64,000 bases of DNA from Tetrapyrgos nigripes (taxonomy: Eukaryota > Basidiomycota > Agaricomycetes > Agaricales > Campanellaceae). The number at the start of each line of letters is the position of its first letter. Position 1 is the stretch's first letter. A model generated the notes under the pieces. It was not told where the DNA came from and did no database searches. It saw only the letters and a program-made list of their open reading frames with translations. The stretch is taken from positions 62,001-126,000 of the forward strand of contig JAACJM010000030.1 in assembly GCA_013368315.1 (NCBI GenBank), read 5' to 3'. Below are positions 4,236-44,815 of the stretch, piece by piece. The position numbers and the translations under genes were made by a program.

Positions 4236-4253
4236 TCTGAGCCCTCGCCTAAC

Positions 4254-17792: not shown

Positions 17793-18463
17793 AAGACCTG
17801 TGACGAGGGTCAGGCGACTAGGGACTTCTAGCTGAGAGGCAGTTGAATGGATGCCAGGCCAAGTTGTAGAAGAAGTAACAGAGTGCACAGGCACTCCAGG
17901 ATGAAGGAAGAAGAAAGTCAAGTAAGTCATGATTAAGTAATTACTTGGCGTACAATTAAATAGCGCTACTGTGAATGAATACTGAGTCTGTAGTGAATAC
18001 CAAAGTCCTCACAAAGTATTAGTACGATAAATTAAGGTCCTATGACGATGTGCTCACAATTACGATTACTATTTATAGGAATTGTTATTCTATGGTGCCA
18101 ACCCACCCAAATTTTCAAAGATTCTGACGCGGATCTTTGTACCGTGTGAAAATTTGACTAAATATGTCTTAAAATTCATGTGATCATTTACAGGGAATTC
18201 GGCTATCTAAAAAGTGCACATAATTTCGACTTCACCGTGCTTCGAACACTCAACCCCGAGGATCGGAACGTACTTGGCGGTGGGTTTTACCGTTACACCA
18301 AATGATCTATATTTGATATTGAAACCAAACTCAGTAGTTGTATGCATAAACTTGGCCCTCATCCCTTTCACTGTTCCTTCATCGTTGCTTTTAGTGAATT
18401 ATTCTTCTAACAACATTCACACTGCGTTTGGTACAATGCTTGCTGCTTTTGAATATTAATATT
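17793..18463. other. No supported gene
   Basis: AT-rich. An 81-codon plus-strand frame at 18214-18459 (MHIISTSPCFEHSTPRIGTY...) has no domain or splice context that I can defend. Confidence 0.35.
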
Positions 18464-18503
18464 ACATGTGACAAGTCTACGACGTCCCAGGCATTGTCCG
18501 TTA
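18464..18503 (+). promoter_or_regulatory. Conserved upstream motif, copy 1
   Basis: Contains GACGTCCCAGGCATTGTCCG with ACATGTG about 10 bp before it. The reverse complement matches the copies at 22889 and 27395. Relative to the plus-strand frame at 18983, about 480 bp away, its orientation is the same as that of the other two copies relative to their genes. Function unknown; a promoter element is inferred from position only. Confidence 0.5.
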
Positions 18504-18982
18504 CATTGACTTTGTTCTCACTGTACGCTTCTGTGACTCTCTCCTCTTGACATCCATCGCATCAGGTTGTAGTATATGCTGTATCAATAGGGTTGTGATT
18601 GTAGACGAGCTTGGTAGTGTGCATTGCGTTGGCAACGACCACTATGTATCAATCGTACTTAAATTTTCGTAGTTATCTTTCGTTCTCAATAGTGTGGTGG
18701 GCTGGTGGCCTAACAATGCCGTATCATCATAGGTATTCTATTCTGGTACATCCTAAGAACTCAAAACTAATCTCATCCCATATGCACTTAGTACTGTGCA
18801 CTCTTCCCAGCTCTCTCTACGGCTCGATGTATGTCTATACATGTTCAAGAAAGCTCATGCTATGAGGGGCGTGTACACATATCTCAAGATATGTCTATTT
18901 CATCCTGCTTTGGCAGATTTCCCAGGCAGCGTACGGAATATCCAGTCGGCCCTCACCAAGTCCAAAAGCCAACAAAAAATAA

Positions 18983-19357
18983 TTGGTACCTATTCTTCAC
19001 GATGAAAAGATAACGAAAACATCATTGAAGAAGATCGACACTTTGATGGAAGATCTCGTAACTTCAAAGGAGATGGCAGACTCGCTTATGCATAGGTTTA
19101 ACTTGATCAGTCTCGACAAGGAGATGAACAAGGACATTATTCAATGCTCCTTTGTCAGAAATGATCACGACGCGTATCGTTGGATTTGTGGTATGGGTGC
19201 TGGTAAGAGGAAGGCCATATTGGAAGGAGGAAGGCCTACAGCCTTGTATCTCTCGAATCCGTGGGGTACAAAGCCTATGAACTCGAATGGTGGTCTCCTT
19301 GGACGACTGGATTTGGGATGGGCTAGAAATAGAGAAACACAGGCAAACGATGTATAG
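18983..19357 (+). CDS. Hypothetical protein, 124 codons, likely a 3' exon
   Basis: The frame (…ITKTSLKKIDTLMEDLVTSK…, …DKEMNKDIIQCSFVRNDHDA…, …GMGAGKRKAILEGGRPTALY…) has credible composition, with an amphipathic helical first half. It ends at a TAG near 19357. An upstream block in another phase (…PALADFPGSVRNIQSALTKS…, around 18900-18970) could be a preceding exon, but no clean junction was found. A conserved motif lies about 480 bp upstream. Family not recognised. Confidence 0.35.
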   Translation: MVPILHDEKITKTSLKKIDTLMEDLVTSKEMADSLMHRFNLISLDKEMNKDIIQCSFVRNDHDAYRWICGMGAGKRKAILEGGRPTALYLSNPWGTKPMNSNGGLLGRLDLGWARNRETQANDV

Positions 19358-19497
19358 ATGCTAACAATTGGTTTTGAAAATACTTATTAAAAATAAAAAT
19401 AAAAAAGTTTTCAAGTTCATATCTTCTCTGTTCTCGATGCGGTATGTATTTATTGTAGAGTGTAATACACCTATCTTTATTTATGTGTGGTGGCCAG

Positions 19498-19622
19498 AAA
19501 AAATGGGATGCCATACAACTCTTCTAACCACACAAACAGACGCATATCCTTTGCATCTAATAATCCTGCAAAGGATATGAATCTGTTTGTGTGGTTAGAA
19601 GAGTGGCATGGCATCCATTTTT
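19498..19622. repeat. Short foldback, arms about 57 bp
   Basis: Inverted arms (AAAAATGGGATGCC ... GCATATCCTTTGCA and TGCAAAGGATATG ... GGCATCCATTTTT) flank a loop of about 11 bases. Several mismatches are scattered in the stem. It could be a tiny MITE or a transcribed hairpin. Confidence 0.7.
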
Positions 19623-20354
19623 GAGGGATGTTGCCAGACTGAACTCACGACTGCAATATTTGGCCAACTTAAGTCCACACATTATACCGCTACACTATTA
19701 CACTGTAATTACTACAGGCAATACTTTTACATGTGTCTAGGTCGCTTTAATGTTGCCCCTTACAGTGCTTTCAAGTGCGTTCCGCAGTCTGCTTATGTCT
19801 CAGGTCGATACCGTTGAAAAGTTAAAATCATGTGGAATAGCGGTTGTGCTTACTCGCAGGAAACCTGGATTGTAGTTCGTATCCCTTAGTACATAAATCA
19901 ATGAATTAACTCTCATTTTTGTGTTACATGTTGAGAAGAAAAAGAGTCCTTTTGAAACGTATGCGCATTTAACGGAGTTGGTAATTGTAAGGTACTACAT
20001 TGCTATTCTCTGCATTAACTCTTCTCTGCGTTAACACCACGAATATACGGTATCCCTTCAGCTTTGAAAAGGTGTCGACTTGAGACATAATGAGCGTACG
20101 AAAGGATGGGCGTGTAATGATGCAGGGTACATGGACATATATTACAACCTTTGGGAAGCCAACCTTTGGGCAGCGTACCCATACTGAAACCTATAACGAC
20201 TTTCAGAAACCACATAAGAATGACAGGTACAACTTACTGGATATGGACGCTTTAGATTAAAGAAAAGCCGGACAATCAAGTTTATAGCCGCCAATGATAC
20301 AAGAACAGGAAGCCGAAGAGGCAGTTTTCCCAACTTCTGCCCTACATGATCATC

Positions 20355-21477
20355 TTAAATAACAAACACGCATGCATTGAAGAAACCTTTGTAGTATTTC
20401 GACCCTTCCCAGCGACTAGCATGACACATCGCGTACCCCCGATAATACCACGTAGTTCTTCCAAGGAGTGGCCTCCCAAGGTCGTCGATCTGCAGTTGCC
20501 AGCTGTTGAGAGTCAAGAGGTCGCTGTACATGTCTTCTTCAATACGATCGTTTATCGGAGTGACCCAGGAGCAGCTATCACCAATGTAACAATGAGCATG
20601 GGACAGCTCACCCGCATATGCTGTGTACTTCTGCACAGGTGGCTCTTCTATAGGTGTCCAACCCCTGTCTCGATACTTTGGTTATCGCGGTGTCGTAATT
20701 CCTGCCGTTTAGGATCGAGGGAAAGCATAAGAGAGTCGTCTTCTCTACGAAAGTGGACCGGGGATAGAGTGAGTACGCGGCGTCGAAGGATATAAAGTTC
20801 ATAACAACAGCTGTCAGAGTCGGAAAGGATGGGTATAGAGTTGTCAGCACTTCTACCCAAAAAATGAGAAATATAAAAACTCACTAGAGTGGAATGACAA
20901 AATAACGTCGATAATCGATTCCACGCAAGCAACGACTTGAATAGTGTAAGCATCCTTTTTGAAGGTGTACACATCGTCCATACCCCCGATTTTCGTAGTC
21001 TCTGGTTAGATAATGAACGTCTTTAACCATACTGACTCCTAATGCCACCGTGAATGACGAGCACTGCCCAACACGGGGCTGGTAATGGTATCCACACTGC
21101 TCTAGAAACAGACCCACTGCACTAGCTTCCTTCGATAGAACGTATAGATCCAAATCCGAACCTGTCCAATTTTCATGGAGTAAGAACTGTAATGCGGCAG
21201 AACCAGAGACGATAAATCTGGTGCGACGTTGCAACTGCTTCAAACGTTGCAGTTGGGAATCGCTGAAGTACGGTGTGTATAGATTGGAAAATCGAAAAGA
21301 CAAGTCCAAGACGGCCTGGACTCGCAACTTCAAGAACTTGCAAACCCTAGCGAGCCGATACAAGTCTACAGTTGGCAAAAGGAAGAGAACACGGTCCACC
21401 ATTTCAGGCAACCTAGGCACAATAAGCAAGTTAACCGACCAGCAGTGGATAACACATACAGCTCTCCGAACCAACAT
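20355..21477 (-). CDS. F-box plus nucleotidyltransferase-like protein, with a frame break
   Basis: ATG at 21477. An F-box-like segment (PRLPEMVDRVLFLLPTVDLY, then LARVCKFLK) is followed by RFIVSGSAALQFL and GSDLDLYV, the Gly-Ser...Asp-x-Asp signature of a nucleotidyltransferase-type fold. The frame then breaks in a run of five C (20983-20987) and continues one base off as VYTFKKDAYTIQVVACVESI. A donor GTGAGT and an acceptor CTGACAG lead to VVMNFISFDAAYSLYPRSTF, and a last block contains SWVTPINDRIEEDM and NSWQLQ. From memory this order matches a common Agaricomycete family of unknown function. Partner and substrate unknown. Either a pseudogene or a sequencing error at the C run. Confidence 0.65.
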
Positions 21478-22239
21478 ACTTTCCTACTCGACATCGTAAG
21501 AGGACAAAAGCCAGAAGGAATGATGAGGCGCATGATAATCGAAGTACGGTTTAAAAAGACAACAGTTAAGAAAAAACAGGTCATAACTGAACCAAAGGTG
21601 CCAAGTTTTCGGCGTATGTATACCACAAAGCGATGCATCGGGTCAATACGCTTGCACCGCACCCCGACGGTCGCAACTACTCCAAATGGACGCATAAGCA
21701 CAGGTACATGTTCCTTAACATACATTGGGAAATTGTAAAGGACGAGGTGTATACGTATAATTCACTTGATAAAGACAACTCATTAACACTACATAACTCA
21801 TCTGTAATGGGCCTATCGAAATATGAAAACTACGTCAATAGCTTGGAGTCAAAGTCAAGGTGGGAGGAAGACAGCGTTCTTGTAGTTTTAGCAAAAGATA
21901 TGACGATGTCAGAAAGGAAATGGAAGATTGCGTTCGTATTTCACTTTTTCAACGTGAAATTGGTTATGGTTGTACCAAGCGCGGGATGCGCAATAAAGGA
22001 AGTTGGCGGGAATCCGAACGTAGCAACCGAAATGACCTTCGCTGTTTGAGAGGCACATTGTCAGTGCGTGACTCAAAGGAAGAAAAAAAAAAAAAAGAGG
22101 AAAAGAAAATAGCACGTATGGCGTAGTGGCAGTCGGGTTGTTCACCTTGAGAAGCCTGAAACCGTGGTACGGGCAATCCATAATGGGTGACCCGAACTGC
22201 CTGCGACTGAAGAAAAAAAAAAATGTTAAGAGGTGTAAC

Positions 22240-22493
22240 TGTAGCATTTTGTAAAGGAAAGTGTACCATTCTGGACATCTATCAAACTCGCTCGCACTGA
22301 CGGGGTCTCCAGTCCCTTCTATCTGCTCCTTCGTCAACTCGTCCATCTTGGGCATAGGCCTCTCAAATGCACCGCGGTCGTTTTTGACCATATACTCGGG
22401 GTCTCCAAGTCCTGTGTCATGCCAGGCAACGGGGACGATCCTTACAGTGACAGGGGAGGAACGAGATGTAGAGGATGAGTTTGTCTCGGACAT
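22240..22493 (-). CDS. Hypothetical protein, first exon
   Basis: From the ATG at 22493 the frame reads MSETNSSSTSRSSPVTVRIV, then PVAWHDTGLGDPEYMVKNDR, and reaches …CPEWYTFLYKM before a donor-like GTTACA and a T-rich stretch ending CTTCAG (about 22200-22240). Downstream exons are uncertain: one possible continuation reads AVRVTHYGLPVPRFQASQGE. The conserved motif at 22889 lies about 400 bp upstream. No family recognised. Confidence 0.4.
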
Positions 22494-22888
22494 GACAGAT
22501 TGATGCTGATAGTTGGAAAGGAAACAGAACCGGATTGATAAACAGCCAAATCCAGTCGATTTTCTAGAAAGTTAGGAGTTTGCGTGATTCAGATCAGAAA
22601 ATACTTTCGACTGGCGAACTCGGTGGCCACTACTAAACCCGACAATCGTATCATCTACTCGCCTGGTTTTTGTTCTGGGAGTGTATACCGACTATGTTGT
22701 AATCCTTCAATCTCAAACGACAGGATACGGACCGTACAACAGACTCTAATACTGTATAAACCAAAGAATACCGGCTTTCTAGCATTACTATATATGTTAC
22801 ACAAGTACTAACATAGTCATGATGGTGGTTGGATGTAGAGAGCGACAAATGACAACCCAACGACTGTGTGGATGCAAAGGCCACGGGC

Positions 22889-22930
22889 AAGGAAAATGCC
22901 TGGGACGCGGTGGACCAACACATGTGGTAC
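22889..22930 (-). promoter_or_regulatory. Conserved upstream motif, copy 2
   Basis: AAGGAAAATGCCTGGGACG followed by GTGGAC and CACATGTGGTAC. Nearly the same order and spacing as the copy at 27395. It lies about 400 bp upstream of the minus-strand ATG at 22493. Confidence 0.5.
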
Positions 22931-23477
22931 GTGTACATGTCATGTGTTTGTAGTCGACCATCTCAACCTTTTCACTTTCAAAATGGCATCAAGATACATA
23001 GTAAAGTGTATGATGAATAGAATATTCGCAATGGATCTACCTAACTGAAAACTACATACATCCATATGGATCGTCATGTATTCGGTTGTCTGCCTAGGGG
23101 AGACTAACTGAAAACCTTGTAGAAACCCTTGCCGCTTTCTTGTGATAACGGTTAGCACTGCCTGAAAGTCCCCAACCGCATCAGGCTCCGTCTGGTCTTA
23201 ATGATTATTATCTACCTTTGAGGCAGTTGGGCAGGTACTTTGGCGATCAAAGAGCTGGTTGTACATCGTGTGATCGGGTTATCCCAACCTCAAGCAATGT
23301 AGAGCATTCCTCAGGCCAACCATAATGTTGCGCCTCGCGTGTCTGAATTTACTGTAACTTTGTAGTAGTCTCCTTGACTTTTCTCCGAATTCATATGTAC
23401 AGAGCTCTCTTCAGTATATATACATAAATATCTACATCAACTACACCAGTTGTAATATATAAAACTCATGCACTTTT

Positions 23478-26400
23478 TTATTTACCAGCTCTCTTTGACG
23501 ATGATCCTTCTTTGTACTTCTTTGGTCGTTGTTTCGTCATACGAGCCACCTTTTTGGCCACCAAAAACATTTCTTCGTGTTCTTGAGAGATTGCTCGATG
23601 TTCGCATGGTGCACAGTCTCTAGCATCGATCAGTACGTTGTCGTCAGCTATTTTTTCATCAGCTGTCCCGCAGTTTTTGAATATCCACGTCTTCATCCAT
23701 GGTACGGTTTGGTGCTCGTCGTCATCGTACTTGAAATATACTCGACACATATATTGCCCAATATGTGGACCTCTGATCGCAATCAGCCCTTTTTCACAAT
23801 GTGTTGGTAGGATCGCATCTCTGTGATTGGCGTCTATTTCGAAGACATGTGTCGGTGGAACTTGTTTACTGGGGTGTTTGCCCCATTGCACGTCGACTAC
23901 ACCTTTCTCCATGTCTGGCGTCGCGTGTACACGGTCATAGCCTTTGCCTGTAGGGGGTTCATATCTTGCTAAGAAAGTTTGACCATGCAAGCGGGAGTCC
24001 ATCGTCCAATGCACCTGGTTGTTGGTCAAAGCGCTTACAAGGGAAATATATTGCTCTCGTTGCTCACGGGTCAGCTCTACCGCTCCAGCTGAAGGGTCCC
24101 ATGCTGATCCATCGTGGGTGATGTCCCGTGTAGGCAGAGGAGGTGTGCTTGGTCGAATATGAAGTGGAGTGGGTTTTGCTCTGCTAGGCAAAGCCCTCCA
24201 GTTTGACCAGTTTAGTGGTTCATAATAGCGCTGGTTGTGTCTGAGGGGATGCGCCTGGTGAAGAGCTAGTCCTGTTCTGGGGGGGTTTGTTAGTCCTTTT
24301 TGAATTTTACTAAGTCCATGTAACTTACTCGTAGTCTCTTATCCAGTCATAATCAAATGTTTGTTGGTGACCGACTCCCTGTACACTTAGCATCACCTGG
24401 TCGTACTTCACTGTGACTCGAAGACCACTATTCAAATCGCTTGCACGGTTCACGTCAAGGACTGTCGCAATGTACTTGCAGGGTCCTCTGACAATTCTGA
24501 CCATTATGTCTTTCCATGGGGCGGGTGGGGTTCACATCATTCGGATCGACTTCCCTGAGTCTTTGTCTGTTAAGTCTTTCGATTTCCAACCTTTTCCAGT
24601 TTGGAGGGTATCAGCGTCGGAAGCTGTTTGGTTCCAATTCTCTGCATCGTATTCTGGACTTGCTTTATGCTGCCATTCTGGTTGTTTGAAGTGTAGCTGG
24701 TCGGGTTGAAGAGGTATTGCATCTCGCATGACGAGCTTGGAGCTATCATTGTTGTGTAAGTATTAGAGTGATTATACATGATAAGAATAGAGGCTTTACC
24801 AGGTGTGAAAGACGTCATCGTGTCTGAACTTCAACCGTTGACCTAACTGTGGTATTTTCACCATCAGCTCTGTAAAATCTGCTGAACTGAGTAGGTGGAT
24901 CCACATCGATAATGATGCCCGTATACTGTTTATAAAAGACCACGGCCTATTGTTACATGCTCCCCTATCCAGGGAATAGTGTTGCCATCTCTTGGTTCCA
25001 CCAGTCTGCAATGGTTAACGTGGACGGTGTATTCCTATACATTTTATAGTCAAAACGAAGTTGCAGAGCTTTGGTAAATGGTTTTTACTTACTTTTGCCA
25101 TTTGCTGGCTCTGCATTCCCGTAATCACACACGTCTCACCAGTAACAGCTACAATCACGCTGGTAATGCCTGCTGCTTCGCCATATGTGATTTCCACCGT
25201 ATTGCAATATCCGAATTGCTTCCTCAAGTTCCGTTTTTCTACCCAACTTTCCCGCTCTCCTTCTACGCTGTCGTGTTTCAGCAGACATCTGGTATCTTCC
25301 ACTCGCTCTATGGTTTGGCCGTCCAGGTCGGTAAAATCATTAACGTTGTCGACTATCTCTCTGTATTCAAACACCCATGAGTCAGGAGCAGGAAGGGCAC
25401 TCATAACAGCCAGGGGATGTCTACTTTGCCAGAAGAGCCATCTAGTGTCTTGATTCATATATACGTTTGTATAAGACACATCCCCTATATTGAAGGCCTT
25501 GAGCAGTAGGCCGTGTTCGAAGACTTGGCCATTTGATGATTTCCCCGTGAAAGGTTCTTCGGTGGTTACGCTCCTCGGAAAGCTGTACTCGTCGTCGGAA
25601 TCTTGCAGGCCCGTCGTAGCTGTAAAAAGTGACTGGGCTTGCCGTCCCTTACTGGCTTTCCATTTCTTCTCTTTCTTGCTCATCTGCGCTATACGAGGTA
25701 CTAGGAGGATCATAATGCGACAGGAAGGGCCAGAAATCTCGCGTCTGATAACGAGGCCCACGTCGTGGTTGTATAAGCCCTTCTCGTTATCCGTACCCAT
25801 GTGTTCACCTGTATCTCCTGAGGCCACCACTTCAAAAGCTCTGCCACTTCTTCCACTTCTATTGCCTGCATTCGCACTCCTCCGTTTCTTAGGTGTCTGA
25901 TATCAGAATGTGCTTCTAGGAAGGCCATGAAAGGATGAGCTTCCTTCGTGTTCGGGTGAAAACCAGGTTTCCCTTCTATATATACGTATCCCGGGACATT
26001 TGGCAAATAAAACGCGGACTGGATAGCTGTTGATTGGGGAAGAGCATCTATTGCATCAGGGGAACATACGGAGTGCGACTGGGGCCTATATGTCGTGGTT
26101 GGTCTGGTTGCCTGTAGAGCGACTGACGAGGACTGTTCGGCACTCCCTGCAATCTCATTTTCATCGGACTCAGACCTCTGCATATTGGCAGGGTAAGCCG
26201 CTTCTGTAGCTCGTGTATTCACGCGTACCAATGCGCTATCGAAGTCGTCACCCTCAACTGTCGCATCATCGATGACACTGGTCCATTCTTCTTCAACGTA
26301 CTCACTGCCGAGTATATTCTGCAACTTGTTGTGAATGTCTGGTATGGTGCTATTGTCGTGTACATAATTGCACATGGCCTCCCATGCACAGGACAACAAA

Positions 26401-27152
26401 TAATTGATGTGCTCCAGAAGAGCAGCAATATGAGTAGACTCGGAGCACTGCTTGCTCAGGCCGTCATTGCAAGAGTCGGTAGGAACGTCAATGTATTTGT
26501 CAAACAGGTTTTCAACCGCATCATATTCTTCATTTTCTCGTACAATGTAATGGTATGCACCTATGAGAATATCACTTTCCGACCCTGGCTGCTGCCCGTT
26601 AGAACGTATTAGATGCTGTGCTTAAATGCGACTTACTTTGCATTGTACGCGCCAGAACGATGGCCCACTTTCAAACCTGAGTGCAAAGTGGTGGTCCCAG
26701 TCCGCCACGTCATTCATGGTTATTCTATCTGCGTCGACTTTTCTCCTTCCTGTGTGGGCCCTGTGGAACTGCACATTGGGGCACTAGTATACGCCTCTGC
26801 AATATGTTCTAGTCTTGCATGAAATGCATTGACTCCAGTGGGCTTTTGGGTCAACGGTGATGATGAAGGACCAGATTTGAGTTGATGGAACAGTGTAGGG
26901 TATTGCTGGCTCTGTAGCTCTAAATATACAAAGCTGTATCAGTTTGACTCATAACACATTTAGCAGATTAGACACACCTTCATCGTCTATCCAGTTATCG
27001 TCACTGTTATTATCATCTGACTCCTCATCATACCCGCTTTCCTCGCTTTCGTCCAGTGCCTCTATATCAAGCAGTTTTGAGATGTCCGCGGTTGCGGTAT
27101 GGACTGATTGGTTATCTCTTCTTGGCCGTTTAGAGGCAGTAGCGCTATCCAT
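23478..27152 (-). CDS. SPT5-like KOW protein, multi-exon, with homopolymer frame breaks
   Basis: ATG at 27152. The first exon (to 26978) is acidic (DISKLLDIEALDESEESGYD...), like the N-terminus of SPT5. Next comes FWRVQCK, an intron with CTAAC branch site, then PGSESDILI: the start of an NGN-like domain, completed by YLPNVPGYVYIEGKP. KOW-type motifs follow: TWVRITR with GLYNHDVGLVIR, then GEHVTIGRG with YTGIIIDVD, then MVRIVRGPCKYIATVLDVNR. The last exon (from about 24290) begins TGLALHQAHPLRHNQRYYEP and ends in a basic tail. SPT5 proteins act in transcription elongation; this resembles a dispersed Agaricomycete SPT5-like family rather than the housekeeping gene. Frames shift by one base in short runs at 26739-26742, 25778-25780 and 24934-24937. 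Confidence 0.7.
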
Positions 27153-27394
27153 CTGTCGAGTCAAATTAGAAGTTTTGTCAGTAACGTGGTCTACTTGAGT
27201 TCAAAACGGGTCTATAATTCACTGTACACTTGCGGATGTACTTGAGTAAAGTTTTCACGCTATGTATTATCTGTACTATATGTAGTCTTCTCTACGTCTA
27301 CGACGCGTATAACCTGACGCGACGTGGGGATGGTCAGAAGTAGAGAAAGCAGAGTGAGACTATGACGTGCATGCTTTGTTGATAGCAGACTATC

Positions 27395-27435
27395 ACGGAT
27401 AATGCCTGGGACGTTGTGGACCTCACATGTGGTAC
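27395..27435 (-). promoter_or_regulatory. Conserved upstream motif, copy 3
   Basis: ACGGATAATGCCTGGGACG followed by GTGGAC and CACATGTGGTAC, about 245 bp upstream of the SPT5-like ATG at 27152. It shares over 30 positions with the copy at 22889. Confidence 0.55.
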
Positions 27436-27787
27436 ATGTTCTGATCATGTGCATGGTTCGCCCCACCCATGGTATTTTCCGTTCTGGAGAGCAGTTGCAA
27501 AGTCAGCATTGTGTCTGTTCCTCCTGTTCTTTTCATCAACCTCCGTGTTATGGTACTATCTGCTTGGTCTTTCTCGTCTCGCTCTAATTATATATCCAGC
27601 TGCGTCATTGGCAGGGATGAAGTTGTACACCTAGTGTTATCTTACGTGTTTTGAACCCTTATGGCTCTTTCAATGTCTGTCTTTGCTTGGTAGTATGCTT
27701 ACGAGGTTTAATGCACCCAGGGAAAAACTTGAATATCTGGCGTTTTCTTAAGGAACACCACAAATTTACTGCTACTCGTTATTGTAT

Positions 27788-28995
27788 CTATTCTACGTCC
27801 TCTCCAGTGCTACTTATTTCATTCACATCCTTATCGTATTTAATCCTCTTGGGTTGACAGGCATCTTCCTCGTCGTTGTCTCTGTAGCGTATAAGAGGTT
27901 TCACCACCTTTGTCTTCCAAGCCGTCAATATTTTCGAACATAAAGTTGGCTGTAGTACTAACCATTCCAGTCCCTGCTATGAGTGTTACGCCTCGCATAA
28001 CGTTGACCATTTTGTATCGTCTGTCTTTTACGGGCCAGACAACAAATGAGAACATGACCTCCACCACTTGCCCTGCTGAGAAGTCTCTAGGCGACAGAGG
28101 GTAGTAACTTCATGGAGAGGACGAACATTATCAATGAAACCCAAAACCGTGGAGGTTAACGACCCAGTCAGTAATGGTTGTACTCTGTGATGGGCTCATT
28201 ACTCACTTCGCTTTATCTCCATTGACTTTCCTTTTTCTGTACTTCACTTGGTTATCCGTTGTATGGACGAACTGTTGCCCAGCATGCTTTGTCATGATTC
28301 CGAACGTGTCAACATTTTTGGGAAGAAGAAGAGGTGTCGTGTATGATGCATCTCGGACATCCAGGAAAATACGGTTGCTGAAGTCTATAACGGTAGCTCC
28401 GCTACGAGGTTCCGACCAACAGGACCACTGCTCCAACGAATCGTCTGGGAAGTGGGGGTTGAAAAGGCTTGCCAACTCCTTCATCAACTCGACGTTCCTC
28501 TTGAAAGCAGGCAAACCAAAACCTGTAATGCTGACGTGTTGACGGAGTTTTCTGCTGTCTTTCAGCTTGCTGTTCGTTTGTTAGCATATATCAATGGCGC
28601 AAATTAAACTCAGAAGTTCTTACTCTGATATGGAAAACGGTGGCAATCCCCTGTTAATCATGACTCCTTGTACACGGAAGACCATCTCTACAGGCTTGAC
28701 TCCAAGTTTCCTGTCTTCTTCGGTATTGTAATGCATCTGCCAGGACTGAGGATGCTCGACTTCGTCAATACTAATTCTGGTAGCATCCATCACCTTTATC
28801 CCCCATACGGTGAGTGTTATACTTTCACTCAATGTGATACATTCGGACTTACATTGTTGAAGGTGGACAGTTGAGCTGATACGGGTCCAATCCTGACTGC
28901 TTCTTCAATAGCAGCCTCCACCTTATGCGCTGGGTACTCGAGGTTAGCCAGTTACTCAGTGGTATGACCTTTGTATAGCTCACCATTTTCTTCCA
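27788..28995 (-). CDS. Conserved hypothetical protein of a dispersed Agaricomycete family
   Basis: Exons on the minus strand carry EAAIEEAVRIGPVSAQLSTF, then DATRISIDEVEHPQSWQMHY, then PAFKRNVELMKELASLFNPH, SGATVIDFSNRIFLDVRDAS and TTPLLLPKNVDTFGIMTKH, then VEVMFSFVVWPVKDRRYKMV. The C-terminal exon is acidic/basic (YRDNDEEDACQPKRIKYDKD) and stops at 27788-27790; reaching it needs a one-base shift in a GG near 27900. From memory these blocks occur together in a multicopy Agaricomycete family with no assigned function. The start is not fixed: an ATG at 28995 leads into a likely intron. It sits 3' of a plus-strand gene group and on the same strand as the SPT5-like gene. Confidence 0.55.
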
Positions 28996-29633
28996 TTACT
29001 GGTGTTCCGGTCAATGACAGTAAGATTGGAAAGGAGGATACAATCGTATGGGCACAAAGTGGCTAAGTAATGGTTTTTTGGTTCTTTCTTTTTTTCCCAG
29101 ATGTTTCAGATCACTGATGATGTTTTTTTTGGGGTTTTGTTTTGGTCGTTGTGGATCCCACCATATTGACATTTTTGGCCCCCGGCGAACCAATTCCAGC
29201 TCATTTGTTGTCTACATGCTCCTTGACCGGTCGCTTCTCGCACTGGAAATCTCTTGCGTGGGTGTCGACCTATGCGGTCGTCGTCTGTACGAATTTAGAG
29301 CGAGATGGACATATTTCTCATTTATCGATTTTTTATATTGTTTGGTCATATGTTGGTCTCTACGGTACAGTCTACGGTGTTTCTTCATGTACTACTCTCT
29401 CACTTACAGTACGACCAACATGGGTAAGTGGTGAAGGACTGCTTAACAGGTGTACGGTTAACCTTTCACGTATTTTCCGGGAGTTAGTTGGTCCTTTGTC
29501 GGCCCCATGATTTGACGCGGGCAACTCTACTTACAAACGAACAGTGTATCTGCACCCGTACTTACCAGGTAACTTATCGATTGTGTTTCCATCGATTACG
29601 CTTCGTATGTGGCAACGTATGTATCCTTGCGCC

Positions 29634-29640
29634 TATATAA
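29634..29640 (+). promoter_or_regulatory. TATA box
   Basis: TATATAA lies about 117 bp upstream of the first ATG of the gene at 29751, in otherwise mixed sequence. It is followed by a C10-A18 run at about 29686-29710 in the presumed 5' leader. Confidence 0.5.
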
Positions 29641-29750
29641 GGTGGTTCGTTTCGTTTTCAGCCTTTGGCGAACCTCCTTCAAACCCCCCCCCCCAAAAAA
29701 AAAAAAAAAAACTCCAAAACCTTTCCTGGCTTTGCTCTACGTCTTCTCTC

Positions 29751-30911
29751 ATGTTCATGCCACCCAGAAAACCTGCTCAGAATGCCCAATCTAGAAGTCC
29801 GTCCAGACGAGGAAAAAGGTCAGTCTATTGAGTCATATAATGAATAACGAGCTGACAACCTATACTCGACGTACCAGAACGGTTACTGCAGATCAGCCTG
29901 AATCTCCTGCTGGCCCAGAAGCTTCTATTGAGAACTGTACTCCGCCTCTGCGTACTCCTTCTCCTACGAAGCCTCCTGCGACCCCAAAGTAAGTGGACAG
30001 CCATGTGGTCAAGCTTTTTTTTTTTTTTTTTCCTTCTCTAACTTTCCTCCACCATGTTAGACACAATAGGACTGGCTTCCCAGTGAACAGTCCTCGGACT
30101 CCTTCACTGGATAAGCCAACTAGGTCGTCCCCTCGTAAAAAAAGCACAGACGCCACGACCTCTTCGTGAGTGCCTGTACCACTTTCATATTTTCTGATTG
30201 TTTATCCAGTCTATACAGTCCTCGTAAACGGGGTCGACGGTCCTCTGGCAAAGTTGATAAACGGTGAGCGTTCGACAATTGCCTTTTACTTTTGTCAATC
30301 TGACGTCGTACTTAGTGTGCTCAGTGCTAGCCCAACTAAAAGAGTCAGAACGACTGTCTAGTGAGTGTGTGGTCTTATCATTGCCATGTATTACTTTTCA
30401 ATGCTCATTTACAGCGTTGCCCCGAGTGATGGGGAAGAAGCATAATACGGACGTCGTTGATGATGATGAATACGAAATGGTTGAACAAGAAACCAATATC
30501 AACGATACCGGGGACGTGTTGACTACGTGAACACGGAAGAAGAATACGTTGACAAAGAAGAGGTCGTAGATGAGGAAGATGTTGACGAAGCCGACGTAGA
30601 TGAAGAAGATGTCGATGACCGAGGAAGGTGAGCATAGAACTTTACTAATGAGGTTCCTTTTCTAAAGTTCTACCATTCGCTCTCTTTATAGTGTGACGCC
30701 CGTTCCCTCACCTGCAGGGACTAATCGGAAAGTGGTTACCAAGTACATCTTTTACTTGATGATAGTCTTATTATTGGTATTGCGTATAGTTGTCGGGTCC
30801 ATTATACTTTCTCTGATGGGCGTTGATTCTTTATCTTATTTTCATTTATTCCGGTTCTTATTTTTATTTTATTGGGAGGGGTGCTTTGTATGTGTGCAGA
30901 CAGTCAACTAA

Positions 30912-30954
<43 letters not shown>

Positions 30955-32837
30955 GCGCCTAAAGAGTTAACAAGAAAAACGCATCCGAAACGGATGAAAA
31001 GGAACCGGTCAAAAAGGAGCATGTGGTCAAGAAGGGCCCTGGAGATGGTAGCTTGTGAGTATTGACCTCCCCAAGTCGAAACACCACACTGACTATACAT
31101 GAAGAGCCGACGCCATTAGGTGGTACGGGGACTTTCATCATTCCTTTGCCTATGACCCCCCTAGAGCACCTTGTGAAGTCATGAAGGATTCGTTCAAGCA
31201 CCCTGACCTTGCCGCTGCTGGTTTATACGACAATCGCGATCCTCTGAGAGCGTGTGTACTACGTTATCTGTTTTGATGCTTATTTGGACTTACTCTATTC
31301 CAGCTCCATGATGCTCAGTTTCAACCTGCAACCTGTCGACGCCGGTTCCTTGAAGTGGGACAGTGTAAAGAACGTTCTTTATCGAGACAGGGATCTTTCG
31401 TGAGTGAACCTGTGTTGCTTGGGTGCATTACGATCAAATAATGTTAATTTAAACAGTCTCGTGGTAGAGTTCCTGAAGTTTGCCAATTGGTGATCTTTCT
31501 GCAACCCCGTGCGATGCCATGTCCTGTCTTTTGACTGGGGGTCGCAGCGTCTCTCCTCTGGACTTAACATCGAATTTTTGCAGGCTGCTAGGTTCAAGAG
31601 TCTCAACGACAACCGCAGTCCACCCCGAACCATGCTCAGTGTCGGTTCAGTAAGTTTTAAAATGTTGTGTATGTGATGAGTGCTGATTTCTTCCATTACA
31701 GGTTCTCACTTCTTCTCTAACTCAACCAGAACAAGTCGGTAACTTTGATCTAAGTGTAAAGGCAATTCGATCCGTTGTATTGTCTCATCTACAGTCTGAA
31801 TTCGAATTCACTGCTTCGGTTGTTGGCAATACCCTCGAGGAGACTTCTTACATCGGTCCCACCGTGTATCGAGACATTGAGTGGGGTGGGAAATCTGGTC
31901 CTGTCGGAGGTATCCAATATAGTACTCGAATTGGTGCATGTAAGTGTCAAGCCTTCATTTACAAAGTATTCCTACCATGGCTAAAACTTGTTTCCTTCAG
32001 ATAAAGGGAATGATGTCCAGCGACCACCGACTGCTGACCAGTTGAAGGTATATATTATCCCGAATTAACATTTCCGCGTTTGATAAGTTCCCTCCCAGAA
32101 ATATGATGAAGCATACAGGACCATCGTCCCTGGGAAGACCACTCCGAAATGCAAATCTTCCGATACTAGCAAAGCAGTGAGTCTTATTAGTTGTGTGTTT
32201 ATTCATTATTAATTCAGTTGCACAGGAATCCTCGTCCCCCTATACGTTCAAAGACCCACAAGAACTCCAGATCCAACATACATTGGCTTTCCGCAAAACC
32301 TCCGTAGATGTTAACGAACCAAGTTAGTTTCCCGTTATCCCTTTTTGGTCTCTCAGTCCGAGTTAATTATCACTTTTCGTACACAGTTCCCATTTTCGAT
32401 TTAGCTCCAAAACCAGGTCGTCGTGCCTTCAAGCTGCTGGACAACCTGCAAAACATCAACGCTTGGCCATTATGGCCTGCTGCCAAACCTCACAGAGACG
32501 CTATCGTCATGGTGGCGTACACCATCACTAGGTATCGCAACCAGAAGAACCCCTCTACTTGGAGCGTTACATTCAACTTGTTGTGGGTCAGTGTTCTTGC
32601 TGGCAACCGCAATCCGAAACGGTGCGTTTTCTTGCTTCGACCTCTGAGGCACTCTATCTCACTGCTTTTCGTACGTTCTACAGCTTGATATTTCCTGAAA
32701 GCCCTGAGAACGGGCAGGACAATGACCACGATAACGATGAAGGTCCTTCCACGCCCAAACGTTCCTCTTCCCGGTCTTCTTCACCAAAAAAACGTACATC
32801 CCCGAAGAAAGACTTGAAGGGTAAAGCAAAAGCTTGA
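29751..32837 (+). CDS. Multi-exon nuclear-type protein of unknown function
   Basis: ATG at 29751 or 29757 opens MFMPPRKPAQNAQSRSPSRR. At least a dozen exons with clean GT..AG borders follow. The N-terminal third is Pro/Ser and basic (YSPRKRGRRSSGKVDKR), then strongly acidic (EEVVDEEDVDEADVDEEDVD), then a globular part (IRWYGDFHHSFAYDPPRAPC; FEFTASVVGNTLEETSYIGP; KPGRRAFKLLDNLQNINAWP; RYRNQKNPSTWSVTFNLLWV). The end is acidic, then Ser/Lys-rich (KRSSSRSSSPKKRTSPKKDL). Charged ends suggest a nuclear DNA- or chromatin-binding protein (inference). From memory the core is a dispersed Agaricomycete family. Single-base frame breaks lie at GGGG 30431-30434, GGGG 30510-30513 and GG 32621-32622; a TGA near 31488 may be intronic. 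Confidence 0.55.
30914..30953 (+). repeat. Run of 40 T inside an intron
   Basis: An uninterrupted T40 lies shortly before the probable 3' splice site CCTAAAG in the gene at 29751-32837. A shorter T run of about 18 lies in another intron near 30015, also ahead of an acceptor. Confidence 0.9.
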
Positions 32838-33514
32838 AAGTGTCTGTATGTTTTTCTATACGCTATCAACCCTCTATATATATATATTGTTTTTACTTAT
32901 TACCGGCTTTGTTTTGTCTGCCGTTCGCTCGTACTGTCGTTACACCCGTTTTTAACCTTCATAAGTATATTACATTGGCACTGTCTTACACATCGACGTC
33001 TACTTCATATTATGTTTTTATGTATGCATTATCTATAGTCTACATCATATGGTCCACATAGTTGTATGCTCCCCCCCTTACCGTATATATTGCAAACATG
33101 TTCGCAGTTCCAAGTGACTCGCCATCCTTTTCATAGATGTGTTGTCCAGATTCCTCCTGGGTTTTTAACTTGCCGTTCAGGCAATATCAAGGCAATATGT
33201 AAAATTTGAAGCTGGTACGAATAACAGTGTGATGACATAATTGTTGTCATCTATTTGGACAATGTTGGAATACTTGCCCACCCGTTTCTCCCTTCGTCTT
33301 CTACTGCTTCCATGACCTGTCTACTTTGTATTGTTTACTATCTGCTCCTCGCAGTATGTACGCTATTCTTGTCTTCCTCATCTTACCCCGAAAACCACCC
33401 ACTACCGCCAGAGACGCTTTCTTTGCATTGCTCCTCCCAAAAGTACAGTATTTATACTGCGTACACAGAGTGTTCGCGCAGCGGCATGATGGGCGTATCG
33501 TTTGTGTCACTCGC
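32838..33514. other. Intergenic, no supported gene
   Basis: Contains the 3' flank of the preceding gene and an open plus-strand frame (33255-33536) that stays in phase with the Helitron frame once the LTR at 33515 is removed. No motif supports it as coding. Confidence 0.35.
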
Positions 33515-33988
33515 TGTCAAGAACGTCATCACTTAGCAAAACCACTCAAGTCACACAATGAACAGATAGATTTGGCAAGTTACAATGAGATGAGATAGAG
33601 AAAGGATAATGGAGACGAAAGGGATCGAGTAGCTGACTATGCTCGACACTGCACTGTACTAGGAGCAGAGTGGAGACGAAGTGAACAGACTAAGGAATCT
33701 AGCTACGAGATCTAAGATATATATAAGAGAGGAATAAATATGTGAGAATGTCCATGGAGCCTAGGGATCGGAGGAGATAAGAATGTGAGTCAAGTAAAGA
33801 AGTATATGTGTGAGAATGTCCATGGAGATAAAGGAAGCGGAGAAGTGAGTCATAGATCGGGATGGACAATGATGAGAAGTAATTAGTGTTTATGGGTTTA
33901 TGGAAGGTGATAGAACAGTGAATAGAAGTGAATAGGTAGTAGAAGGAAATGAAGAGGGAATCAAAGAGACGGGAGGCGATTCATGACA
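33515..33988 (-). mobile_element. Solo LTR in reverse orientation, 474 bp, TSD CTCGC
   Basis: On the plus strand it starts TGTCAAGAACG and ends GATTCATGACA, with CTCGC on both sides (33510-33514 and 33989-33993). Read on the minus strand it begins TGTCATGAATC and ends GTTCTTGACA, like the palindrome LTRs at 8859. TATATATAAG on the plus strand near 33715 mirrors a TATA element. A 20-bp block (GTGAGAATGTCCATGGAG) is repeated within it about 70 bp apart. Confidence 0.8.
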
Positions 33989-33993
33989 CTCGC

Positions 33994-35483
33994 GGGCACT
34001 CCTTATAGCCCTTGGTGCAATATTACAAGTTGTAGCCCTCAGTGCAATACAGTGAAACGTAGCCCTCAGTGCAATAAAGTGAAGCGTAGCCCTCAGTGCA
34101 GTATAACAAACCGTAGCCCTCAGTGCAATACAGATGGACATAGTGCTCAGTACAAGTCACTCAGACACAGCGATAAAACAGATATTAACGATCAGTGCAA
34201 AGAAAACTTCTTTTGTCCCTTTTCACATTCGAAACCCTCTTACATTTCTTTTTTAGCAGCCGAAATCCATTGTCGTCGACTTAAATATTGCAATAATGGA
34301 GACCGCAGTCCTTTTTTCTGCCCTCTCAGTAAGCAACCCATTTACCATGTAAGAAATATGGTACATCTCTTGGCTACTTCACGGGTACAAGGAAACGTTG
34401 CATACCGGGCTTTGGTATGCTGTATCCAGAATCAGATCACCAAGTCGAAATATCAGCAACTGATGAAGCACTATCAACGTGGACAAGTAGTTCCGCTTCC
34501 GGTGGTGTTTTATTGTTGTCGAATCAGCGACAGGTATTATTCTCTAGACATTGACAGTGTTAACTCCAGTGTCAAAGTTTCTTCATTGCACGATATACAT
34601 GTGCATTTTGTTTCCAGCGAAACACAAGAACCAGAAGCTATTGGAGGTGGTACCTCTACGGTTTTTTTCAAGAAACTTGCCCCATACTGCCAAGAAGGGA
34701 TCTCACCCTACAGTAAGTCAATTAAGTTTAAAGTACACAGGGCACATGTCGGAACCTTGTTGACACACCAAGACTTACAGTCTTTTCTGGTGTGTACAAT
34801 CCCTTTGCAAGACCCTTTTATGAATGAGATGCTGACAACAGTCCTGAAATCTATTGCTAATCTGCATGGCATATTCATCAACAGTCGGAATAGCAAGGAT
34901 AATGTTGTAAAGTTACTCCACCAGCATGTTTGCGAGTCGTGTCATCCTGTTGTAATACTCTTTCAACTGTTTGTGATCAAATCACCTGCAGAACGAACAG
35001 AGAAGTGGTATTCAAAAATGAGGAAAGACGAGAGAGATTCAGGAAGCACTGAAAAGAATGATAATGGCAACTCCGCAGAAAATGTAGCTCAATTGAAACA
35101 AAAATTTGTCAAAGATGATCATTACTTTCCCCCTCTACCTGTTACAATTAACAAAGTAATGAATGTAATAAGGGGTTTCTGTCAAGACACAGATCCTTCC
35201 AAAATACAGGAAACAGGGTGTGCTGTGTGTGGTCAGCTTCATCCTCTGCATACTAGTCAACCGCTCCATCAGGACCAATTGGACTTGGGTATATTGCAAG
35301 TACCAGGGGTCACTCGCAGAGAACGCCGCAATGAGCATGACCCGATAATAGACTTGCAGAGTCCAGTCCTTGCAGCAGGCTGCACACACATATGTGATAC
35401 ATGTTTCCACTGCTTAGGAAAGGGCAAAATGCCACCAAATGCATTAGCACAAGGACTCTGGATAGGTGAGATCCCTGATGAAC
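33994..35483 (+). pseudogene. Helitron protein, N-terminal part (DUF6570-like region)
   Basis: About 497 codons stay open. After the repeats comes a region without known motifs, then CAVCGQLHPL near residue 415 and CTHICDTCFHCLGKGKMPPN followed by ALAQGLWIGEIPDEL. These are the Cys pairs and the GLWIGE-type ending that I associate with DUF6570 in Helitron proteins. The frame is then cut by the LTR element at 35484. The apparent ATG at 33983 belongs to the last bases of the solo LTR, so the original start is unknown. The sequence resumes beyond the insertion as LKNLRFAEKLLIAQVRHSRC, exactly in phase after removing one target duplication. Confidence 0.7.
34005..34140 (+). repeat. 27-bp tandem repeat (TAGCCCTCAGTGCAATA...)
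   Basis: Five to six units of 27 bp. In the Helitron frame they encode nine-residue repeats of the type RSPQCNTVK. They lie directly after the solo LTR at the 5' side of the Helitron, so they could be coding or subterminal structural repeats. Confidence 0.8.
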
Positions 35484-36099
35484 TGTAAGATCTATGCACT
35501 TCCCTATACTTCTTATACCTTTCCGATACTTTCCTATACTTCACTTTCCTGTACTTTCCAGTAGGGTCCTGTCCGGATCCTTTCCAGTAGGGTCCTTTCC
35601 AGATCCTTTCCAGTAGGGTCCTTTCTGGATTCTTTCCAGTAGGATCCAATGACTTTCCAGTACAGTCTTACTTTCCATTACTTTCCTATCACTTTCCGAT
35701 CATTCCTTCATTTCCGATTCATCTCCAATCCTACTCCAACATCTCCACTTCATATCCACAACTCCACTTTCCTTAGGAGGCGTTTCCCTTCACCTTTCCT
35801 TCTGTAGTTATATTACTCTTCATTTCCGATCCTTTCCTATCTTATTCCTACACTTCCCGAAGTAGTACTTAAGCTAGCACATTTGTAGTAGATAGCTTAA
35901 GTGCAAAATCGACAAAGCTGGTCTCCTATCCTTCCTTGATGATTCCCTAGAGCTTCCCAGTCTTTCCGACTGAAATCCCTATTTATCTTTATAAGCTCTT
36001 TCCTATCTGGATCCACTCGGAATCTCTATCCAATCCACTCAAGACTTCCATCTGGGTCCTTGGTGTTTCCTAGCATTGGGTATCCGCATGGACTTGACA
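35484..36099 (+). repeat. 5' LTR of the non-autonomous element
   Basis: 616 bp, TG..CA. It directly adjoins TGAAC on the left. Near-identical to 37636-38251. Confidence 0.85.
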
Positions 36100-37635
36100 G
36101 TATTTTGCACTTCCTCCTTGACTTGTCAATGACTGTTTGTATCGGAATTCCCACCTTTCCGGTCAAGCTCCAGTCGGAGTATTGAGTCTGTCCATAGGCT
36201 CTCCTCTTCCTTGCACTCTGGTTATGCAGTGACCGAGTTTGCAATGTCCATTCCCACTGCTCCCTATGCCATCCTCGTATGCTTCACCTATGCACTTTCC
36301 ATGCCCCGCACTTATTTTTTTGGCTCTGGAGCCTTCAGACACTCTTTACTTACTGTTTCCGACTTTTCCGAGCTTTTTTCCTTCTAGATTTACTGACCTT
36401 TATTTTCCCTAAAACTCCGGTTGTATTCCGAGTTTTTTGTGCCTTCCTGGGTCCATTCCTTTCCGGACCCTAGGATTTACTCCATTTCATTCCTGAAGTC
36501 TGATTACCCCAGGTTTCCGGAGTATTTCCGATTTTTTTCTCTAATTTTAAAACATTTTTTTTACCATTACTATTCCGGACTTTCCGGTCATTTTTCCGGT
36601 CATTTTCCGATCCATTTTATGACCTATATTCTTACCTCTCGCTTCCGGGCTTTCCGGAATATATTTCCGATTTTTTCCGGTTTTTTCCGGTTTTTTCCGG
36701 TTTTTATAGCATCTTTTTCACTGTTAATTTTTACCTTTCCCTCCGATGTCTTTCCTGACATTCCCTCCACATTCCTATCCCCTCTGGCCCAGTTCCTTTC
36801 CAAGACTTCCATGTCTTTCCTTTAGGAATTGACTGTGTGTTGTATTTTGGATCTCGTCACCCTTTCCCACTTAAACCCGTTGGTTTCCTGGGTTAAAGAA
36901 GACACTCCTTCCATTTCTTCACTTGTCATTTTCCTCAGCGCTTCTCCACTAGTTTGCACTTTGTGTGACTGTGGAATCCCTTGGTATCCGGTACTTTTCC
37001 GATGCCTCCTGGCTTTCCTGCCATTCCAACTCCTCTCTGGCTTTATGCCACTCCTACAGCTTCATCTGAGCTGCTTGCTGGTGCCACAACCCTCCTACAT
37101 ACATTCCGCTCTATTCCACATTTTTCCTTCTCCAATTCTTTCCAGTCCTTTTCCATGCCATTGTGCATTTTTTCCTTTCCATGTCGTTCCACTCCCTTCC
37201 CGACTTTTTCCGGTTTATTCCGCATTTTCGCTTTCCGGCTCTTTCCTTTCACTTCCCAAGTCATTCCACGCTGTTCCAACCCCCTCCATTGCATTCCGCT
37301 TTTTTCCACTTTCCATAGCTTTCCACTTTCCACATCTTTCCACATCCTTTCCACTCCATTCCACAATTTTCTGACTCTTTCCAGTCCATTCCGCATTTTT
37401 GCTTTCCTGCTCTTCCTGCTCTATTCCGCATTTTTTTTTTTCGACTTTCCAAGTCTTTCCACCCCATTCCACATTTTTACTTATAAATTTGCTACAAGAC
37501 CATTTCCTTGTATTTCCTAACATTTTCCTATGCCTCTCGTGGGCTCAAGGCCTAAGAGGAGGATACTGTAAACCCTATGCATTTTCCCATACTTTCCTAC
37601 ACCTCTCGAGGGCTCGAGGCCTAAGAGGAGGATAC

Positions 37636-38251
37636 TGTAAGATCTATGCACTTCCCTATACTTCTTATACCTTTCCGATACTTTCCTATACTTCACTTTC
37701 CTGTACTTTCCAGTAGGGTCCTGTCTGGATCCTTTCCAGTAGGGTCCTTTCCAGATCCTTTCCAGTAGGGTCCTTTCCGGATTCTTTCCAGTAGGATCCG
37801 ATGACTTTCCAGTACAGTCTTACTTTCCATTACTTTCCTATCACTTTCCGATCATTCCTTCATTTCCGATTCATCTCCAATCCTACTCCAACATCTCCAC
37901 TTCATATCCACAACTCCACTTTCCTTAGGAGGCGTTTCCCTTCACCTTTCCTTCTGTAGTTATATTACTCTTCATTTCCGATCCTTTCCTATCTTATTCC
38001 TACACTTCCCGAAGTAGTACTTAAGCTAGCACATTTGTAGTAGATAGCTTAAGTGCAAAATCGACAAAGCTGGTCTCCTATCCTTCCTTGATGATTCCCT
38101 AGAGCTTCCCAGTCTTTCCGACTGAAATCCCTATTTATCTTTATAAGCTCTTTCCTATCTGGATCCACTCGGAATCTCCATCCAATCCACTCAAGACTTC
38201 CATCCGGGTCCTTGGTGTTTCCTAGCATTGGGTATCCGCATGGACTTGACA
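37636..38251 (+). repeat. 3' LTR of the non-autonomous element
   Basis: 616 bp, preceded by a polypurine-like AAGAGGAGGATAC and followed by TGAAC. The differences from the 5' LTR are C/T or G/A changes, four of them at CpG positions. Confidence 0.85.
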
Positions 38252-38256
38252 TGAAC

Positions 38257-44100: not shown

Positions 44101-44394
44101 TCATTATTGGCTGTTGATGCTTCTTCAAATGACATAACACCAACTAAGTCAATCAAAATAAGGTGTGTTGGCCATAAGACTGCTTCTCTACATCTCAGAG
44201 GTATAATATATTGGGTCAACCAGAACCACTTTGTGGCACGTGTGATAAGGAAAGACAATACAGTCTGGTTAAATGACGGAATGATCCATGGAAATGATTC
44301 TCACTTTGAAGGTTTATTGAATGACACATCAATGAAACAGCTGACTACATACAGTGATCATCCTGCATGTTCATACATATATGCTCAACGTTAA
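41134..44394 (+). CDS. Helitron PIF1-type helicase with C-terminal cysteine-protease-like domain
   Basis: The first ATG after the stop is 41221, giving 1,057 residues. Helicase motifs: MGGMGGTGKSRVIQAL (Walker A, about residue 180), CAPTGTAAALVHGTTYHSLL, FIDEVSMLSMQDM (Walker B), FAGDFAQLPPVGG, and AQTRNHQSIYTALSRS (motif VI, about residue 620). A linker with a basic patch (KKRKMS, PVKRTKV) leads to GLIWDNQNFSCGYDSVLTIL, where Cys fits a papain/USP-like nucleophile, and IIYWVNQNHFVARVIRKDNT with WLNDG, fitting the catalytic His region. Two CxxC pairs (LCATCGES; LNCPVCHQ) lie between. This part is fully open over 3.2 kb. It belongs to one polyprotein-sized Helitron protein with the Rep. Confidence 0.85.
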   Translation, partial: DDYSALRKRCQPSAGSGPGFDVDELEDDAMHEFLQNINNSFGEDTMESNLDFNTEEFPNNSSIRNNLLNEQISKTLDTSGMMDSHSDKYEVDKEANAFHPDPTIDGSTWRQRIANKKNSAILSMKHSSPFGRTDLTNKNNHKFSRWNEVIFDDVSYIDRHFKSQLAQEQKISDDIVEDENLNEEQQRAFKIIANHAMSSDVRPLKMYMGGMGGTGKSRVIQALRRLFDDRGEGHAMVVCAPTGTAAALVHGTTYHSLLGFSRPSSEEVTVNEDSGIKRARDNLEGVRYIFIDEVSMLSMQDMARINQRLAQISGNQESGFGGYSIIFAGDFAQLPPVGGTALYTKKMPRMDRAHSLYTQVEEMGKALWHQVTHVVILRKNMRQQTLTASDAQLRTALENLRLASCTTDDIAYLQSRVAGWMSDCPKINSSKFRYVSIITSRNTQRDQINKQQLHRFAEEVNEPLHSFYSWDIIGQGKDPAHTRRKKYRATAPPNIMSDSLRQALWELPPCDTGHLPGILQFCKGMPVMIKYNEATELCITNGQEAHVHGWKSAFDTSGKEYLDVLYVKLHKPAKDITIPGLPCNVVPLSKNSVPVTARMPNGETYSITRSQVQVIQNFAMTDFNSQGRTRDFNLCSLAQTRNHQSIYTALSRSSTHQGTVIMESLSHATIEKISGGLSGHLRQEFRELEVLDEVTRLRFEKELPVNIKGVTRIDVVSQFLAWKGRHCVPENVPAVLKWSQQDPIEDVENFNDTIVNLNKPANKKEGQSNVYNIGNTENYVTAPGSQPLLHIDKKRKMSDNEDSLAAHPVKRTKVSLDSAQSGPIGLIWDNQNFSCGYDSVLTILADLWKFNPLFWTKEWRSCNEFINYLSTGLTDVYENKCNIEKIRDHLRARLNYSDTRSFPYGETGVAIDKLLRCILERQDPSSTNLYLCATCGESSRTGNLNSVIATPGLKGSLNSALLKLQTAMHLNCPVCHQAVQVRWLFNVTPSLLAVDASSNDITPTKSIKIRCVGHKTASLHLRGIIYWVNQNHFVARVIRKDNTVWLNDGMIHGNDSHFEGLLNDTSMKQLTTYSDHPACSYIYAQR

Positions 44395-44488
44395 CTGATT
44401 CTCTAAATTTGTGCACTTATTCTGCTACACTACCTTTATATAAAATAGTAATCGTCTCGCCAGCATAGCTTGGCCTCTCCCCCCCAGT

Positions 44489-44815
44489 CTAAGGGATCTG
44501 CAGACAACTATGGAGCGATAAATGACCCAGCTCAGAAGAAGTCAATCTCGTTAGAGGAAAGTGGGTAGCAGTAATCGGAGGGATAAAGAAGGATTGAGAA
44601 TCCTTCTTGGGGTTTTTTGGAATAAGGAACAAGAGGTTTCTGACATCTGGGGAATACATAGAGGGATTGTATGGAGTTGACAGACATGAGACATTAGGGT
44701 TTGACAGCGGGTAAAAGATGTTTCCTAGTCCTGCAAATATGCCTTGTCTGACTGTTGGGGAACAGTGACACATTTCATAACCAGGAGGAGATTCTGGGAG
44801 AGTCATGGATGACAC
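44489..44815 (-). CDS. Short hypothetical frame
   Basis: A 108-codon minus-strand frame (MSSMTLPESPPGYEMCHCSP...) with plausible composition (STPYNPSMYSPDVRNLLFLI) but no introns, domain or upstream signals that I can point to. It begins near the putative Helitron 3' end and could be chance. Confidence 0.2.
   Translation of the reverse strand: MSSMTLPESPPGYEMCHCSPTVRQGIFAGLGNIFYPLSNPNVSCLSTPYNPSMYSPDVRNLLFLIPKNPKKDSQSFFIPPITATHFPLTRLTSSELGHLSLHSCLQIP

Follow-up and report, generated by a model that had tools for sequence, protein, structure and literature searches.

Helitrons are transposons of which one displaced strand transposes via a circular intermediate (PMC6431247), and fungal Helitrons with cargo of unknown function are already known. 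The closest described systems, as given in the available parts of the respective papers, are three. In the basidiomycete Pleurotus ostreatus, HELPO1 Helitrons encode a RepHel protein, possess a subterminal hairpin and carry one to four captured genes (capA-capF), several of them of unknown function (PMC4289320). Helitron2-type FoHeli elements of Fusarium oxysporum carry a hairpin at each terminus together with an inverted repeat set off from the 3' end (PMC5148889), and plant Helitrons with an RPA-like gene keep an accessory gene beside RepHel (PMC4683698). Here we analysed 64,000 nucleotides of Tetrapyrgos nigripes (assembly GCA_013368315.1, contig JAACJM010000030.1, positions 62,001 to 126,000; hereafter the window, part of our contig C30). 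The genes A to E that are clustered in this window very probably form the interior of a giant Helitron2-like rolling-circle transposon, because Rep and helicase domains and both termini are present, insertion occurs between a purine and T, the gene set is kept between copies and A to D are under purifying selection. The element measures 26.4 kb, or about 23 kb minus two inserted long terminal repeat (LTR) sequences.

The Rep/PIF1-helicase gene starts approx. 1.1 kb downstream of gene D. It had been overlooked as the engine of the element in the preliminary description of this DNA, as had the looser status of genes A and E. Pfam matches were found to DUF6570 (E=4e-32), to Helitron_like_N in two open reading frames (ORFs; 2e-17 and 2e-14) and to the PIF1 helicase (2e-25). 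Rep (Helitron_like_N) and a PIF1-type helicase are thus encoded in one gene, as in Helitrons, although the window gene is split into several ORFs. No endonuclease family, which in the transposase would mark a Helentron, was detected when the Rep/helicase ORFs were scanned with Pfam. In the window the element survives as a broken relic: an LTR element interrupts the Rep/helicase gene, which also has a frame change and a stop codon in frame; the reading frame of gene D is also disrupted, near 30.43-30.53 kb. A tandem repeat of a 27-bp unit (four copies in register, window 34006-34155) lies where the Rep/helicase reading frame begins, and towards its C-terminus (window 43597-44388) the helicase ORF gave a weak match to Peptidase_C98, a ubiquitin-specific-peptidase-like family, under the cut-off (E=0.026).

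Both ends of the element could be fixed. The 5' end was sharp: TTACGATTACTATTTATAG, with at most two mismatches, followed six distinct flanks. At the 3' end a hairpin (GCCAGC...GCTTGGC, 13 nt from the element end) was followed by a C-run, then CCAG or CAAG and then T, beyond which nine distinct insertions diverged. Hairpins were foldable at both termini, and a 13-letter stretch from the 5' end was present again, inverted, 32 nt ahead of the 3' end, as in the asymmetric terminal inverted repeat of Helitron2. The ends of Helitron1 (5' TC, 3' CTRR) were not present; the element begins with TT and ends with CCAG or CAAG. The termini resemble those of Helitron2 and not TC...CTRR. The base before the 5' end was A in two and G in four of the six cases, and the base after the 3' end was T in all nine; Helitron1 inserts between A and T. 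No target-site duplication was visible at these purine/T insertions when the flanks of C30, C170, C415 and C488 were inspected by eye. Because the flanks were partly alike between C168a and C168b (approx. 12 letters) and between C170 and C415 (approx. 10 letters), C30 and C488 give the most secure 5' edge. Two insertions recurred with an identical flank (C410 = C170, L080/L005; C585 = C345, L084/L083) and represent haplotigs or assembly duplicates. Outside the element, a fold-back repeat with 230-bp arms that are 97% complementary (window 17151-17775) lies just left of the 5' end, and a repeat of approx. 160 bp (window 44485-44647; about 25 relatives among the matches listed, 81-92% alike) adjoins the 3' end.

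All genome-wide counts refer to the T. nigripes assembly (98.5 Mb, 587 contigs). At up to three mismatches 84 5' ends were found, against none in the control and 0.0005 expected. Pairing took in 73 of these, omitting 11 with three mismatches, and 34 of 35 rows of 3' ends. On the same strand 26 of the 73 listed 5' ends paired with 25 of the 34 listed 3' ends (two 5' ends on C23 share one 3' end), and 13 pairs were spaced 1.65-1.76 kb. From these same-strand pairs and the short spacing of 13 of them we concluded that they constitute one family that includes short non-autonomous members. The preliminary description had asked whether shared end repeats bound the cluster and had named independent distribution of the families and a lack of conserved boundaries as the outcome that would speak against a common unit; both Helitron termini were fixed, and that outcome did not occur. 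The coordinates of all features are collected in Table 1.

Table 1. Features of the Helitron, numbered from the first letter of the window.
Feature	Position	Strand	Basis or remark
Helitron, entire, end to end	18060..44487	+	26,428 bases; each end placed by independent insertions
5' terminus and hairpin; arm of the 13-nt inverted repeat at 18062-18074	18060..18092	+	common start after 6 distinct flanks; hairpin fold
21-nt motif, 1 mismatch	18475..18495	-	without assigned neighbouring gene
Gene A, F-box/nucleotidyltransferase-like, at least 2 exons	20358..21483	-	weak Pfam matches; genome copies
Gene E, two exons, between A and B	21912..22493	-	conserved in C11
21-nt motif, exact	22895..22915	+	approx. 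400 nt ahead of E start
Gene B, SPT5-like, many exons	23478..27152	-	Spt5-NGN; relatives with KOW5_SPT5; solved Spt5 chains
21-nt motif, exact	27401..27421	+	approx. 250 nt ahead of B start
Gene C ('TTPLLLPKN' gene)	27791..28951 (outer limits approximate)	-	genome copies; conserved in C11
Gene D, acidic N-terminal and basic C-terminal tails	29751..32837	+	translation; genome copies
Inserted solo LTR, just ahead of Rep/helicase	33515..33988	.	target duplication CTCGC; family seen in DNA search
Rep/helicase gene (DUF6570, Helitron_like_N, PIF1)	33994..44391	+	Pfam matches; without established start codon
Inserted LTR element	35484..38251	.	LTRs 611/616 identical; target duplication TGAAC
3' terminus with inverted-repeat arm (44443-44455) and hairpin (44459-44474), final letters CCCCCCCAG	44443..44487	+	common end of 9 distinct insertions

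A DNA search with window positions 16001-36000 was dominated by two LTR families, and a clean stretch was then searched. The genome contigs were searched with the Rep part of the gene, and stretches 55-74% identical to the window Rep were called close and those of 39-48% distant. Nine close Rep loci were found, including the window, and gene D lay within 20 kb in eight of them (C30, C132, C19, C11, C216, C229, C345, C68), always upstream of Rep and on the same strand. By comparison, D was found within 20 kb of none of the 62 distant Rep places (a lower bound, as 72 of 195 candidates were scored; duplicate contigs may repeat one insertion), a difference with a Fisher p of 8e-10. As the window had been chosen for its cluster, counts are also given without it: D then accompanies seven of eight close Reps (p=7e-9). 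Close C loci had D within 20 kb in six of eight cases, or five of seven without the window, and the remaining two, both on C168, had B within approx. 12 kb, hence all eight were near B or D. By chance D would be expected within 20 kb at 0.6% of the loci; the clustering is far above this. The families are multicopy and co-located, as the preliminary description had supposed. D is the cargo gene most tightly linked to Rep.

The order of the genes was also retained. C11 preserves the window order B(-), C(-), D(+), Rep(+), and C132 preserves D, C, B with a shortened B. Copies of the window repeats 4252-4723, 12888-13758 and 48240-48881 (70-92% alike) are inserted within the C11 copy as nested transposons. 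A and E travel with the element less strictly than B-C-D do. On C170, C415 and C488 an A-type gene is enclosed between both ends of short elements (5.1-5.6 kb); over the compared stretches these elements are 97-99% alike, therefore A moved recently without an adjacent Rep gene. On C153 a terminus pair of 12.7 kb encloses a distant B.

Genes A to D were all found where the preliminary description had placed them. For its reading of A as F-box/nucleotidyltransferase-like two weak matches were obtained, both below the Pfam cut-offs (DUF2204 nucleotidyltransferase, E=0.003, 17.6 bits against 20.3; F-box, E=0.0078, 16.6 bits against 20.5); the C170 copy of A is 51% identical across 164 residues. 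Gene E, a fifth cargo gene that had been missing from that description, occurs at five loci genome-wide: four of them (C30, C491, C11, C43) are near B, and the fifth, on C83, has a distant C nearby. For gene B, described earlier as an SPT5-like KOW gene, the Spt5-NGN match barely passes the Pfam cut-off (22.5 against 22.4 bits). KOW was not detected at E<=1 in the three window ORFs of B that were scanned; the relatives P0001-P0003 do carry KOW5_SPT5 (E 1e-9 to 5e-9). A profile of B and its relatives matched solved Spt5 chains with a best E of 1.8e-7. In the protein database B has four relatives, three from Dendrothele bispora and one from Stygiomarasmius scandens, and KOW was found in relatives of both species; the predicted structure of one relative was too poor for a structure search (predicted local distance difference test, pLDDT, 32.0). 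Between genes E and B a stretch of approx. 50 bp (window 23053-23115) has 89-95% identical copies at six further places. Gene C showed no recognised domain, gave nothing usable against Pfam, PDB and PHROGs and had zero relatives in the protein database; that it forms an OB-fold is our own guess from the sequence pattern. The acidic and basic tails of D are visible in its translation, as had been noted. D has a single protein database relative, labelled Tetrapyrgos nigripes and probably from the same genome, and the predicted structure of D (pLDDT 39.7) was also too poor for a structure search.

Selection on the genes was followed by the ratio of nonsynonymous to synonymous differences per site (pN/pS); the window was compared with other copies in 32 cases. 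Comparisons below 40 codons were dropped and stop codons skipped. Only BLAST-aligned codons were used, which biases the values downward for cargo and Rep alike. The synonymous value pS was near saturation, at 0.72-0.87 in 28 of the 32. The pN/pS values were 0.35-0.43 for A (n=2), 0.24-0.49 for B (n=13) and 0.25-0.30 for D (n=2); for C they were 0.13-0.36 in nine of ten comparisons and 0.54 in the tenth (58 codons, interval 0.33-0.90). The Rep/helicase gave 0.22-0.38 (n=5), compared with 0.13-0.54 for the tested cargo A-D as a whole. Genes A to D are thus under purifying selection, comparable to that on the Rep/helicase.

A 21-nt motif, AATGCCTGGGAYGNNGTGGAC, was found at 14 genome sites with up to two mismatches (control 0; approx. 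2 expected by chance). Eleven of the 14 are located at copies of the element or close to one of its genes (C30 has three, C11 two, and there is one each on C132, C170, C415, C488, C491 and C19); the other three are on C181 (exact) and on C279 and C357 (two mismatches each). The shared motif suggests a common regulation. The earlier proposal of an element that controls its own expression is matched by suggestive signs, namely the SPT5-like gene and this motif, which is nearly confined to the element. The broader proposal, that the families form one module of a selfish element, is borne out by their position inside a Helitron with its Rep/helicase, and the module is larger than had been noted.

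Several observations weigh against the Helitron reading. At seven of 15 D loci no close Rep was nearby, and C62 carries a close Rep without D. Besides the window element no copy was seen that had both ends and was autonomous. Compared with the window, C11 has A and E in inverted orientation. The distant relatives of B and C form larger families, and C304 and C83 are the only contigs on which both were found, approx. 30 kb or more apart. The wider B and C families, at most loci of which no link to these ends was seen, and the differing orientation of A and E speak for ordinary gene capture, whereby host genes were swept up as passengers with no role for the Helitron, and captured genes in fungal Helitrons provide a precedent (PMC4289320). 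We regard this as a lesser possibility, since D accompanies the close Reps only and not the distant ones, the order B-C-D is held between copies near synonymous saturation and pN/pS is low throughout A-D.

The D loci without a close Rep would also agree with B-C-D being a separate mobile or host cluster, either hit by a Helitron insertion or spread by segmental duplication. This appears very unlikely, as the flanks of the copies differ right up to the Helitron ends, D lies just upstream and on the same strand at eight of nine close Reps, and the window shows no further terminal repeat around B-C-D. Least credible is a silencing or defence unit in which an elongation-like factor would act with a charged protein and an F-box/nucleotidyltransferase; its one point of support is the analogy drawn in the preliminary description, and nothing that we observed points there. 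The genes sit inside a transposon, no domain recognised as belonging to defence or silencing turned up in the Pfam scans, and the membership of A is not constant.

For the Helitron2-like transposon that we favour, a course of transposition can be proposed from Helitron biology. Rep would nick the 5' end of the element, the helicase would peel one strand off up to the 3' hairpin, and the circle would then insert at another place. C and D may assist Rep or coat single-stranded DNA, although that neither matches a known domain counts against these roles. B might act on transcription of the element via promoters that share one motif, and A and E may be optional passengers that could also travel in short elements without Rep. 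These functions of the cargo proteins are our inference. Carried further, the element could be a transposon with its own transcription programme, combining an SPT5-like factor and Rep/single-strand helpers with motif-marked promoters, which would escape host silencing and also drive non-autonomous, motif-bearing cargo elements; on the whole we consider this unlikely.

Five multi-exon genes are thus carried on one 26.4-kb element, and in the four that were tested (A-D) selection between copies has been purifying. Several gene families that are dispersed and without known function can now be assigned to a single mobile system whose ends are defined, and two questions are therefore directly testable: which accessory proteins are required by the rolling-circle transposons of eukaryotes, and whether a transposon is able to manage its own transcription.

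No published report of a Helitron with SPT5-like, KOW or elongation-factor cargo was found among titles and abstracts, subscription literature being mostly outside reach. HELPO1 elements measure 1.5-13.7 kb, have T[C/G]...CTRR ends and insert at AT, whereas the element described here has 26.4 kb and TT...CCAG ends; capA and capB are downstream of RepHel, while here the cargo is upstream of Rep, a distinction drawn from the available description of HELPO1 (PMC4289320). In FoHeli3 a single unknown ORF lies upstream of the transposase and in opposite orientation; FoHeli1 and FoHeli2 measure 5-6 kb with TCAG...ATTTT ends, and in the available part of the paper no SPT5-like or multi-gene cargo is described (PMC5148889). 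The RPA-like protein of plant Helitrons is a recognised single-strand-binding protein (PMC4683698), whereas C and D are without any known match, and that they act on single strands is a guess. Gene B has a match to the NGN domain of host SPT5, but is multicopy and transposon-borne. Set against these systems, the element looks new in its size, in its set of genes and in the SPT5-like gene among them.

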